IMG/VR virus record: IMGVR_UViG_3300042485_000398
Span: 53,296-117,295 of that record
Direction: 5' to 3' (one strand)
DNA length: 64,000 bases
Origin: a virus
How positions within the stretch are numbered: the stretch's first letter is position 1; each line of letters opens with the position of its first letter. This document shows, piece after piece, positions 2,803 through 41,322 of the stretch. The notes below the pieces were generated by a model, which worked only from the letters and a program-made list of their open reading frames with translations, was not told where the DNA came from and made no database searches. A program made the translations under genes and the position numbers.

Positions 2803-3436
2803 AATCTACACCCGTAATATCTTCAACCATTGATTTCCAGAGGTCCTCATGGGGAACGACATAACCGAGAGTGAGGCGCTTGCTTCGGCTCCCAGCACAG
2901 TGATAGAAGACCTTATCAGTCTCACTACGCCTACCGAAGTAACCGACCTTGACAGACCAACCCTTGGGGTCCCAAAGAGTGACCATTTCTTTTGTTATTG
3001 GATCTAGATACCTAAAGTAGCCGCCATTCTCTTCTGTATTATAAGAAAGAAGAATGTTGTAGCCGCTTGCATTCCAGTTTGTGTGCCAGCCCATAAATCC
3101 ATTTTCTGGATAATAAACATGAACCGCATTGTTTTTGGCACCTAGAAACGAAATTAATTCACGATTGAGTTTCTGTTGCTTCTCGCGGTGAGTGGTCGGG
3201 ACAGAATCTACCATTCCGATATCACAACAGAAAGCGGTTTCTGGATACCCCTCATGTTCACCATCTTTACCGACTAACTCATTCATATACTTTTCAGAAG
3301 TGCCAGTGTCGATATCAAATCCTCGACGCCTATCTGGCTCTCTCAATTTGTCGTGGTCTGTTTGTGAGAAGAACCACTCCGCATAAGGAGTAAGAATTTC
3401 CAGAAGTTCTGGATTAATATTTTTAGAAACCTTCAT
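2789..3436 (-). CDS. 2-oxoglutarate/Fe(II) oxygenase-like protein with HxN motif
   Basis: The start is the ATG at 3436, overlapping the upstream stop (TAATG); a longer reading frame extends into the previous gene. The 215-residue protein has a double-stranded beta-helix pattern: MGWHTNWN with His118 and Asn120, then a strand-rich stretch (YNILLSYN, GGYFRYLD), then a C-terminal FYHCAGSRSKRLTLGY with His179 and Arg187. This matches the order HxD...H...R of 2OG/Fe(II) dioxygenases, except that the usual Asp is Asn. Known enzymes of the family hydroxylate proteins, nucleic acids or small molecules. The substrate here is unknown and the Asn ligand makes catalysis less certain. It is coupled to a glycosyltransferase-like gene. 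Confidence 0.55.
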   Translation of the reverse strand: MKVSKNINPELLEILTPYAEWFFSQTDHDKLREPDRRRGFDIDTGTSEKYMNELVGKDGEHEGYPETAFCCDIGMVDSVPTTHREKQQKLNRELISFLGAKNNAVHVYYPENGFMGWHTNWNASGYNILLSYNTEENGGYFRYLDPITKEMVTLWDPKGWSVKVGYFGRRSETDKVFYHCAGSRSKRLTLGYVVPHEDLWKSMVEDITGVDFTEL

Positions 3437-39124: not shown

Positions 39125-39194
39125 CTTATTTCCATTTTTTTGTTATACTTGAGAGGGTATTAACCAGTGACTCCCCACACTGATTGTCCGAAGA

Positions 39195-39240
39195 CAAAAA
39201 ATAACCCACTGTGCTTGCTGGTGTCAGGTCGCACAATGGG
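39195..39240 (-). terminator. Rho-independent terminator of the tmRNA transcript
   Basis: On the minus strand CCCATTGTGC and GCACAGTGGG form a 10-pair stem (one G:T) around a 16-base loop, followed by TTATTTTTT. It follows the tmRNA coding piece and precedes the SleB gene. Confidence 0.88.
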
Positions 39241-39284
39241 TCATACAACTATTTAGCATCCGTAGATTCTTACATCACTCATTT

Positions 39285-39479
39285 CATCGTATAAACCAAA
39301 CAGGTGATAGTTTTATTCTGTTTCGAGGGAAAACTATCAAAAACCCAATGAGATTATGCGGCTAGCGCATATCCTGCAAAGGCAACGTTATCGTTTGCAT
39401 TTACGTTTAGTGGCACTTTGCCAAGCAATCAGTCTCGAACCGCCCTATTACACGAAAATCGAATTCCAAGGTCACCCCC
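39285..39479 (-). ncRNA. ssrA: Permuted tmRNA, coding piece
   Basis: The 5' end GGGGGTG (39479-39473) pairs with CACCTCC of the acceptor piece, giving a seven-pair acceptor stem with a G:U at position 3:70, the AlaRS identity element. The next bases, GACCTTGGAATTCGA, match the tmRNA 5' signature (CUGGAUUCGAC type). The tag frame at 39398-39354 encodes ANDNVAFAGYALAA and stop, starting at a GCA resume codon. An H-type pseudoknot follows: GATAGTTTT pairs with AAAACTATC and the loop's AAACAG pairs with CTGTTT. The 3' boundary is approximate. Two-piece tmRNA is typical of alphaproteobacteria; it rescues stalled ribosomes. Confidence 0.9.
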
Positions 39480-39602
39480 ATCAACAAGAAACTCATCTAG
39501 GCAAGTACCGCAGCAAAAATCATCTTCTATTATACGCGCTCTTAAATCTTCTAGGTTAGTATACTGAGAGTCACGTATGTCACGACAACTGCAAATTACC
39601 AT
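39429..39602 (-). CDS. Bfd-like [2Fe-2S] ferredoxin nested in the tmRNA gene
   Basis: This 57-codon ORF starts MVICSCRDIRDSQYTNLEDL and contains FCCGTC. Cys4, Cys6, Cys31 and Cys34 match the CxC...CxxC pattern of bacterioferritin-associated ferredoxin (E. coli: Cys4, 6, 38, 41), with a shorter spacer. In bacteria Bfd releases iron from bacterioferritin. An AGAGGA ribosome binding site follows the tmRNA acceptor CCA directly, four bases before the ATG. The last 17 codons or so lie in the tmRNA coding piece, so tmRNA processing would destroy the mRNA. The ORF is short; the motif, ribosome binding site and conserved start make it credible. Confidence 0.65.
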   Translation of the reverse strand: MVICSCRDIRDSQYTNLEDLRARIIEDDFCCGTCLDEFLVDGGDLGIRFSCNRAVRD

Positions 39603-39612
39603 AATTTCCTCT

Positions 39613-39676
39613 TGGTGGAGGTGCGGGGAGTCGAACCCCGGTCTTTCCGCCTTTATTGTTGATTGTCAACAACTGA
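39613..39676 (-). ncRNA. ssrA: Permuted tmRNA, acceptor piece
   Basis: The piece carries a perfect T arm (stem CGGGG/CCCCG, loop TTCGACT), the acceptor strand CACCTCC and an encoded ACCA end (CCA at 39615-39613). A GGCGGAAAGAC stretch before the T arm is a candidate 3' strand of helix P2. In permuted genes this piece is transcribed before the coding piece, as here. The 5' end is set by the predicted start of transcription and may be trimmed. Confidence 0.88.
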
Positions 39677-39681
39677 TAATC

Positions 39682-39712
39682 TATTTATACACTAGTTTGC
39701 TTTGGAAGTCAA
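39682..39712 (-). promoter_or_regulatory. Dual sigma70/late promoter of the tmRNA gene
   Basis: TTGACT, a 17-base spacer and TATAAA form a sigma70 promoter. The -10 extends to an exact T4 late element TATAAATA (39689-39682), so the tmRNA locus may be read both early and late. Predicted +1 is near 39676. Confidence 0.7.
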
Positions 39713-40304: not shown

Positions 40305-40649
40305 CTATAGATTAAAATTGATACTCTCTCCGCAGCCGCAGCTACTAGAAGCAAGCGGTGCTTGTATTTCAATGACGCTACCAATAATATCAACTTTTTT
40401 ATTAACGGTGCTACCTATAAGATATAGTTCCGACGGTCTATCCAGCCAGAACGTCCAATCATCATACTCTTGTGGAAAGTCATCTTCTACGAGTTCGTCA
40501 GCACTCTTTACCAAATCCCACTTGTAACTGAACCCGGCACATCCACCTCCTGCGAGAGATAGTCGAACACCTAGTGCGTTATTTGAAACTGAGACATTAC
40601 GAAAATGCTCAAGTGCGGATTCCGTAAACTGTATGCGGTCTTTTATCAT
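40305..40649 (-). CDS. A-type iron-sulfur carrier (IscA/ErpA/HesB-like)
   Basis: The 114-residue protein, started at ATG 40649 (a GTG 36 bases upstream lies inside the previous gene), contains SLAGGGCAGFSYKWDL with Cys37 and ends SSSCGCGESINFNL with Cys104 and Cys106, the three cluster ligands of A-type carriers. These pass Fe-S clusters to target enzymes. A 25-residue insert (VEDDFPQEYDDWTFWLDRPS) is typical of phage copies. An AATAAATA stands five bases before the ATG. It may serve the radical SAM enzymes encoded upstream. Confidence 0.9.
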   Translation of the reverse strand: MIKDRIQFTESALEHFRNVSVSNNALGVRLSLAGGGCAGFSYKWDLVKSADELVEDDFPQEYDDWTFWLDRPSELYLIGSTVNKKVDIIGSVIEIQAPLASSSCGCGESINFNL

Positions 40650-40653
40650 CAAA

Positions 40654-41322
40654 CTATTTATTACGACTCGCTTCGAATAAATCACGAGTTTCGATAAGTT
40701 TTTTGGCCCAGTTGTCGCGCTTTTCTACAAACACCTGAGGCTCATCGCCATCTACAGCAATCAAGATAACAAGAAAGGGAACAGGAATACCAGTTCGTTC
40801 TTCATACATGATTGCATATGCAGCGGTCTGCATAAAGTAGGAACTGATATATTCCTTCTTCTTGGGCCGATTAGAAGTCTTAAAGTCGATTACGGCGCGA
40901 ATACCATTGTATTCTCCGATACAGTCAACGCGACCAGCCATACGCAGGAAGTCGCTGTATAATGCCAGCTCTTGGCAGTGAATGTTATCGATAGGTTCAA
41001 GAATTGACTTAAACTTAGTAAACATTTCCTTGTCGAGCAAGGACGCTCTCACGCTATCAAAATCGACTTCTTCATTCTTTAAATATGCTTCGGTAAGTGT
41101 GTGTATTTTAGTACCGCGAGTAGAAGCCTGCTTAGAAATGCGGTCGGCTTCTTCTTCACCAACGCGCTCACGCCACTTGTTGATGCCATCTTTATTCAGA
41201 ACACCGAGAACAGTGGTAGCAGAGGGATATCCAACACCCGAGGCATTGACATAAACTCTGCTACCATCTTCTCTTGTTTCATCTTGGGCGAAATCAGTAT
41301 AATCATAGATCGTTTTAAACAT
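40654..41322 (-). CDS. PD-(D/E)XK exonuclease (MGME1/RecB-like)
   Basis: The 222-residue protein has YPSATTVLGVLNKDGINKWR, RGTKIHTLTEAY (RGTxxH, residues 69-74), CQELALYSDFLRMAGRVDCI with Glu118 and Asp133, then AVIDFKTSNRPKKK with Asp146 and Lys148, and SSYFMQTAAYAI (QxxxY). This is the order of PD-(D/E)XK single-strand exonucleases of the RecB/MGME1 group found in T4-like marine phages. It probably acts in recombination and DNA end processing. Its ATG follows five bases after a consensus -10 box, suggesting a leaderless transcript. Confidence 0.82.
   Translation of the reverse strand: MFKTIYDYTDFAQDETREDGSRVYVNASGVGYPSATTVLGVLNKDGINKWRERVGEEEADRISKQASTRGTKIHTLTEAYLKNEEVDFDSVRASLLDKEMFTKFKSILEPIDNIHCQELALYSDFLRMAGRVDCIGEYNGIRAVIDFKTSNRPKKKEYISSYFMQTAAYAIMYEERTGIPVPFLVILIAVDGDEPQVFVEKRDNWAKKLIETRDLFEASRNK

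Follow-up and report, generated by a model that had tools for sequence, protein, structure and literature searches.

Nearly all bacteria have tmRNA, whose precursor is usually regarded as non-coding outside the tag. For precursors of the tRNA type, cleavage by RNase P and 3' trimming to CCA are established. Permuted two-piece tmRNAs of the alphaproteobacterial type (RF04321/RF01849) are encoded in the order acceptor piece, intervening segment (IVS), coding piece, and are characterized by a G-U pair in the acceptor stem, a tag starting with ANDN and a hairpin-bounded IVS. Two-piece tmRNAs are also known from phages, for example Melnitz (PMC9004378). Additional genes within tmRNA genes are on record: some tmRNA genes contain a group I intron, in part with a homing endonuclease gene, and one permuted tmRNA has a tRNA-Ala in its IVS (PMC11915505). 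A protein ORF in an excised segment that is bounded by a terminal stem has been described for the 23S rRNA intervening sequences of Coxiella and Leptospira, which carry the S23p ORF (PMC4990558). S23p ORFs seem to be unexpressed in Coxiella (PMC4990558).

The phage locus described here shares the gene order, the G-U pair, the tag type and the hairpin-bounded IVS with the alphaproteobacterial tmRNAs. Whereas the 28 bacterial permuted tmRNA IVSs compared span 5-57 nt, the IVS here, with 133-135 nt, represents a conserved gene for a protein. As in the S23p system, an ORF lies in a segment that is absent from the mature RNA and has complementary ends, with excision in vivo to be expected from permuted tmRNA biology. 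The S23p system involves RNase III and rRNA, a longer, decaying ORF and a Shine-Dalgarno sequence (SD) that is lost on excision (PMC4990558); unlike S23p, the ORF here is conserved and continues into the mature RNA, and its SD is part of the stem. With the intron-bearing tmRNAs and the tRNA-Ala IVS the locus has in common the extra gene inside a tmRNA gene, but in those cases the insert is a self-splicing element or an RNA gene, and both an SD in a processing stem and a companion protein family are absent. A literature search, with most subscription journals outside its coverage, retrieved neither a description of a conserved protein gene within a tmRNA IVS nor one of a protein family linked to phage tmRNA. 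The placement of an SD in a conserved IVS helix and the protein family that accompanies phage permuted tmRNA are new here. A tmRNA precursor that carries a selected protein gene, with the start site within the conserved helix, provides a testable case of one RNA choosing between mRNA and ribosome-rescue RNA, and the family, which follows phage tmRNA genes across many phages, provides a candidate partner protein for phage tmRNA.

The window, a stretch of 64,000 nt, is part of the 117,295-bp IMG/VR virus record IMGVR_UViG_3300042485_000398, in which T4-type genes (PhoH, exonuclease) neighbour the tmRNA locus. ARAGORN placed a permuted tmRNA on the minus strand at 39708-39263, in agreement with Rfam (95.8 bits for RF04321, above the gathering cut-off of 47). 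All features below are on the same strand. Direct reading of the sequence identified a sigma70-like promoter just 5' of the tmRNA, with a -35 box TTGACT (39707..39712), a 17-nt spacer and a -10 box TATAAA (39684..39689); TTGAC is found at equal distance in most related phage tmRNAs. The -10 box sits in TATAAATA, which is T4-late-promoter-like as well. A T4-late promoter as the sole reading was rejected, because the excess of TATAAATA in the window is slight (9 versus 5.2 expected) and the TTGACT box at 17 nt fits sigma70 equally. According to the RF04321 alignment and ARAGORN, the acceptor piece, T arm included, occupies 39613..39674, with the acceptor 3' strand at 39623-39617 and CCA at 39615-39613. 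The coding piece begins beyond the IVS with the 5' strand of the acceptor stem, GGGGGTG (39473..39479), and 39479 is the expected RNase P site. The 7-bp acceptor stem is kept across the IVS, with double changes at two pairs, and the compensatory changes are found in L316 and L318/L319. ARAGORN located the tag coding sequence, ANDNVAFAGYALAA in a frame that ends in a stop codon, at 39354..39398. A putative terminator hairpin, ACCCATTGTGC..GCACAGTGGGT plus T-run (39193..39241), was seen by eye and not reported by a terminator scan. About 0.7 kb upstream of the tmRNA, at 40305-40685 (-) of the window, there is a gene for an IscA/HesB-like A-type carrier (Pfam Fe-S_biosyn, E 1e-9). An Fe-S operon including this gene was considered and rejected, as the neighbour is not kept in other ORF-bearing phages.

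The IVS (39480..39612, 133 nt) consists of a 10-nt leader and exactly 41 codons, without an in-frame stop. The SD AGAGGA (39607..39612) abuts the CCA end, and the ATG at 39602, 10 nt 3' of CCA, opens a 57-codon ORF (39429..39602, stop codon end at 39429) for a small cysteine protein with a CxC-x24-CxxC pattern. These coordinates, given in an earlier note on this DNA, are borne out. Codons 1-41 fill the IVS exactly and codons 42-57 overlap the tmRNA coding piece. The overlap is thus real as the note had it, but it comprises 28% of the ORF, and "third" was slightly too high. As the note also held, removal of the IVS takes away the start codon, together with codons 1-41, so that a given transcript can serve as mRNA or as tmRNA precursor, not as both.

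The ORF recurs in other phages. A peptide scan detected it within the IVS in 21 further viral contigs, the window's record not counted, and in differing gene neighbourhoods. The tmRNAs with the ORF are of the window-like type (tag ANDNVAFAGYALAA), the L007-like type (ANDNVAFALAA), the L318/L319 type and the L316/L317 type. The ORF is kept in the tmRNA IVS, without indels, in nine variants, which come from three divergent phage groups. Relatives that keep the tmRNA with a broken ORF, which would have told against the earlier note, were not found; ORF-less relatives have a wholly different IVS (L088 versus L014). Over codons 1-39, dN/dS was 0.04-0.14 in unsaturated pairs with at least 10 changes. 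In deeper pairs the synonymous sites are saturated, with pN about 0.15-0.24 and no indels. Of the 21 changes in two independent pairs, 16 are at third codon positions (P = 7e-5). Selection at the protein level is clear from dN/dS and the third-position excess, and a chance ORF is ruled out by dN/dS and recurrence; judged by these substitution patterns, the small cysteine ORF is a real gene. In its tail, from codon 42 onward, the sequence tracks that of the tmRNA and shows no conservation as protein. Matches to residues 39-57 (most of L019 onward) reflect the conserved tmRNA coding piece and were not counted as the gene.

Among 50,697 records of isolated phages, the small cysteine protein was not found, all matches having E>1. 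A bacterial source was also considered and rejected: a scan of genome contigs for the CCA+CxC pattern yielded 21 chance matches, none of them in a tmRNA, and 299 Pseudomonadota genomes gave weak, chance-like matches only. The permuted tmRNAs of L318 and L319 (about 2928-3245) were missed by ARAGORN and scored 97 and 85 bits with Rfam; surveys by ARAGORN alone will undercount tmRNAs of this kind.

In ORF-less phage IVSs, the complementary ends form an 11-bp helix next to the acceptor stem. In its register, the base directly behind CCA is paired with the base five positions ahead of the acceptor strand, and UGAU forms the linker. Across 17 distinct IVSs of this kind, 97% of the cells were paired, double changes were seen in 10 of the 11 IVS pairs, and pairing dropped to 38-61% in slid-register controls. 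ORF-bearing IVSs have the helix in the same register, with 91% of helix cells paired (11/11 in L316); for the whole structure the value was 94%, versus 52-66% when slid. Here the 5' strand (39603..39612 in the window) is the leader with the SD, and the 3' strand (39484..39493) comprises codons 37-39, GAG UUU CUU (39494-39486), and the next codon. The window's own helix has one G-G mismatch. The SD reads AGAGGA in L007, AAAGGA in L316 and TAAAGAAA in L318, and it is weakened in L012-type variants.

The codons for Glu37-Phe38-Leu39 are invariant at the nucleotide level in all IVS variants (3/3, versus 1/16 for the other invariant residues, P 0.004). When codons were redrawn with the amino acids fixed, the helix had P about 0.17 in a single variant, which is not significant, and the case for the helix consequently rests on register and invariance. 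In RNAfold calculations, which ignore pseudoknots and kinetics, the pairing probability of the SD in the helix was near 1 for six pre-tmRNAs. In folds of the growing transcript, the leader was unpaired at 0.5-0.75 up to the point where about 10 nt of the IVS remained to be transcribed, and at 0.03-0.15 thereafter. Because the SD is one strand of the IVS helix, the start site is predicted to be hidden in the folded pre-tmRNA. For the same reason, the mutual exclusion of mRNA and precursor is stronger than the earlier note held. Among 28 bacterial IVSs (Pseudomonadota), most have a hairpin, often in the same register as the phage IVSs, and with only 5-57 nt these IVSs cannot hold the ORF. A helix so widespread, present in phage IVSs generally and in many bacterial ones, probably serves processing in the first place, and the masking of the SD may be incidental.

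The idea of an exclusively IVS-borne gene was overturned by free-standing homologs in further scans. The gene was found in 59 contigs, 21 times in the IVS and 31 more times with a permuted tmRNA in the same locus. It lies just upstream of the tmRNA in L394-L400, L404-L410 and L421-L423, somewhat farther upstream in L401, L402, L411-L413 and L419, and just downstream in L430; it overlaps the tmRNA 5' end in L418, L424-L427 and L431, and is 1.5 kb away in L403. A permuted tmRNA was thus close by in 52 of 59 loci with the family gene, versus 1 of 117 control loci, taken among the matches listed from an unrelated loose pattern scan (P 1e-35, a value to be read with the contigs not being independent, many of them near-identical, and with about a dozen cases by distinct arrangement). 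In L404-L410 and L394-L400, the upstream cysteine gene contains the tmRNA promoter or has it at its end, and in L404-type loci the last codons GTA TAT AAA TAG represent the tmRNA -10 box TATAAA plus the stop codon. In L417 (2911-3001) and L420 (2916-3001), the gene starts 9-15 nt beyond a tRNA CCA end, and the L417 record has a permuted tmRNA 14 kb from the gene. The same spacing after a tRNA CCA was noted in L428 (about 3001), where the tRNA was recognized by eye only.

Among whole records with the gene, 16 of 17 contain a permuted tmRNA, whereas the gene was absent from all 17 records that have a permuted tmRNA with another IVS. Nearly all records with the gene carry the tmRNA, whereas the tmRNA also occurs where the gene is absent: the gene depends on the tmRNA and not vice versa. 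In its occurrence, the small cysteine protein behaves as an accessory to the permuted tmRNA of phages.

Cysteines in the window protein are C4 and C6 (CxC) and C31 and C34 (CxxC), the two motifs that the earlier note had taken as signs of a bacterioferritin-associated ferredoxin (Bfd). Invariant across 24 members are M1, C4, C6, R7, I9, R23, D28, C31 and C34. Bfd (PF04324) likewise has a CxC near the N-terminus and a CGxC after two short helices, but the spacing between CxC and CxxC is 24 residues in all members aligned, versus 31 in E. coli Bfd, making the loop about 7 residues shorter, and the genomic link of the family is to tmRNA/tRNA and not to iron storage. The window protein had no significant match in Pfam, PHROG or PDB. 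Fer2_BFD (PF04324) was the Pfam family matched by most members (5/24), in all cases below the cut-off of 26 bits, with the best score for the divergent relative L417 (22.0 bits, E 2e-4). The assignment to the Bfd family, for which the earlier note had required a match of residues 1-36, is therefore not borne out for the window protein itself, and divergent relatives approach it below threshold. In a profile comparison with seven Bfd domains, the score was reached by 1 of 100 shuffles that kept the cysteine columns. The predicted order loop-helix-helix-CGxC-helix agrees with Bfd, in models of three helices with low confidence (pLDDT 57-61), and Foldseek with the 57-aa model of this low confidence gave no fold match. 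The small cysteine protein is plausibly a Bfd-like metal or Fe-S domain that does not reach Fer2_BFD membership. It most likely acts on tmRNA/tRNA or a ribosome-rescue step, possibly through this domain.

The IVS can differ between otherwise similar phages. The flanks of the IVS are 94.7% and 97.4% identical between L088 and L014, and the difference is confined to the IVS, which is a 53-nt hairpin in one phage and holds the ORF in the other. Such near-identical flanks around different contents indicate that IVSs are exchanged as units. Identical IVS sequences also occur under different tags, for example in the tmRNAs of L083 and L119. Cys-type IVSs have a length of 133-135 nt, and other contents were observed as well. 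The L422 IVS, after CTGGTCCACCA (L421 and L423 identical), has the unrelated ORF MPVDMYYYTESEWNRLGCGPLPPERDIRNKVKSSFE, whose frame continues into the tmRNA; this ORF (MPVDMYYYTESEWNRLGCGP...) has a strong SD, AAAGGAG, right after CCA, and its leader pairs with the IVS end at 9/9 positions by eye. In L424, after CAGGTCCACCA (L425-L427 identical), a 35-aa ORF (MIYYIFILSLVVFGAVYI...) fills the IVS, with one likely membrane segment (MIYYIFILSLVVFGAVYIARDKTLDKEKERNCDLF) and the linker UGA as stop codon. The L422 and L424 IVS ORFs were each seen in identical copies only.

We favor, with a probability of about 0.6, a reading in which the locus is a bifunctional unit that yields pre-tmRNA and the mRNA of the small cysteine protein from one transcript, by a single initiation-dependent decision. 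Transcription would probably start at the sigma70-like promoter in front of the tmRNA, and the SD would emerge about 110 nt ahead of its masking strand. While the IVS is still being copied, the SD after CCA would be open, and a ribosome could initiate. This ribosome would traverse the IVS and then the acceptor 5' strand, so that this copy would be spent as mRNA and maturation barred meanwhile. Without initiation before the last ~10 nt of the IVS, the leader would pair with the Glu37-Phe38-Leu39 codons, and closure of the helix beside the acceptor stem would hide the SD and present the tRNA-like domain for maturation. Processing, by the expected RNase P cut at 39479 and 3' trimming to CCA, would then excise the ORF and destroy the mRNA. 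Protein and tmRNA output would represent one decision, governed by the ease of ribosome initiation, and when free ribosomes are scarce, a larger share of the precursor might become tmRNA. The unrelated ORF in the L422 IVS, whose SD also lies within the terminal helix, was counted in favor of this explanation. A broader proposal, which we put forward tentatively as a possibility that falls short of an even chance, is that a phage metal-binding family is dedicated to permuted tmRNA, and that the gene of one branch, placed inside the precursor, forms a self-adjusting translation/rescue switch.

Alternatively, the arrangement might reflect compaction without regulation. The IVS would be free space that needs only closed ends; part of the precursor molecules would serve for translation of the gene, and pairing of the SD would be tolerated, not selected as a switch. 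This would fit the role of the IVS as a swap site, with near-identical phages differing in IVS content only, the same IVS sequences under different tags, and the unrelated ORFs in L422 and L424. We consider it unlikely, since the family is tied to tmRNA even outside the IVS and GAG TTT CTT is invariant at the nucleotide level. The bifunctional unit is also to be compared with the earlier note's proposal that a Bfd ferredoxin links ribosome rescue to iron supply or phage stage. The four cysteines in Bfd-like order, the 22.0 bits of L417 for Fer2_BFD, the 1/100 shuffles and the predicted helix order point to Bfd, yet every match stays below the Pfam cut-off, the window protein has none at all, and the models are of low confidence, with no fold match and a spacing of x24. 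No iron gene is kept beside the family gene: the IscA-like neighbour is not kept, unlike the tmRNA linkage, and coupling to iron status is unsupported. We regard the proposal as improbable.

Two further explanations concern the fate of the ORF as a message. The excised IVS, leader plus exactly 41 sense codons, might be the real mRNA; ribosomes would reach its end and be released by tmRNA, giving a tmRNA-tagged product, and the element would titrate or sense rescue capacity. In favor, every Cys-type IVS ends flush with a complete codon and has no stop, and conservation as protein is limited to codons 1-41, the tail being governed by the tmRNA sequence. The length of 41 codons is inherited, however, and hence not an independent argument, and the SD may be lost when the CCA trailer is trimmed, a loss reported for the Coxiella 23S rRNA IVS (PMC4990558); we hold this explanation to be quite improbable. 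We give very little credence to the view that translation of the ORF at its present site is slight or absent, as for the S23p ORF in 23S rRNA intervening sequences. It could draw on this precedent (PMC4990558) and on the SD occlusion predicted for the finished precursor, but it is difficult to reconcile with strong purifying selection under saturation of synonymous sites between groups, and with an SD-like leader retained in most variants. The Coxiella S23p ORF, moreover, is reported as decaying, unlike the conserved ORF here.

Some of the loci with a free-standing cysteine gene have additional features. A second small basic protein ending in ...KITKKSLKGKKTQR(I/V)K recurs close to these tmRNAs, upstream of the cysteine gene in L401 and L418 and beside the tmRNA in L403, where the ending is KITRKSLKHKHTQAVR. 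The IVS of the L401 tmRNA contains a T-arm-like stretch, GAAGGTTCGATTCCTTC, as if from an inserted tRNA fragment.
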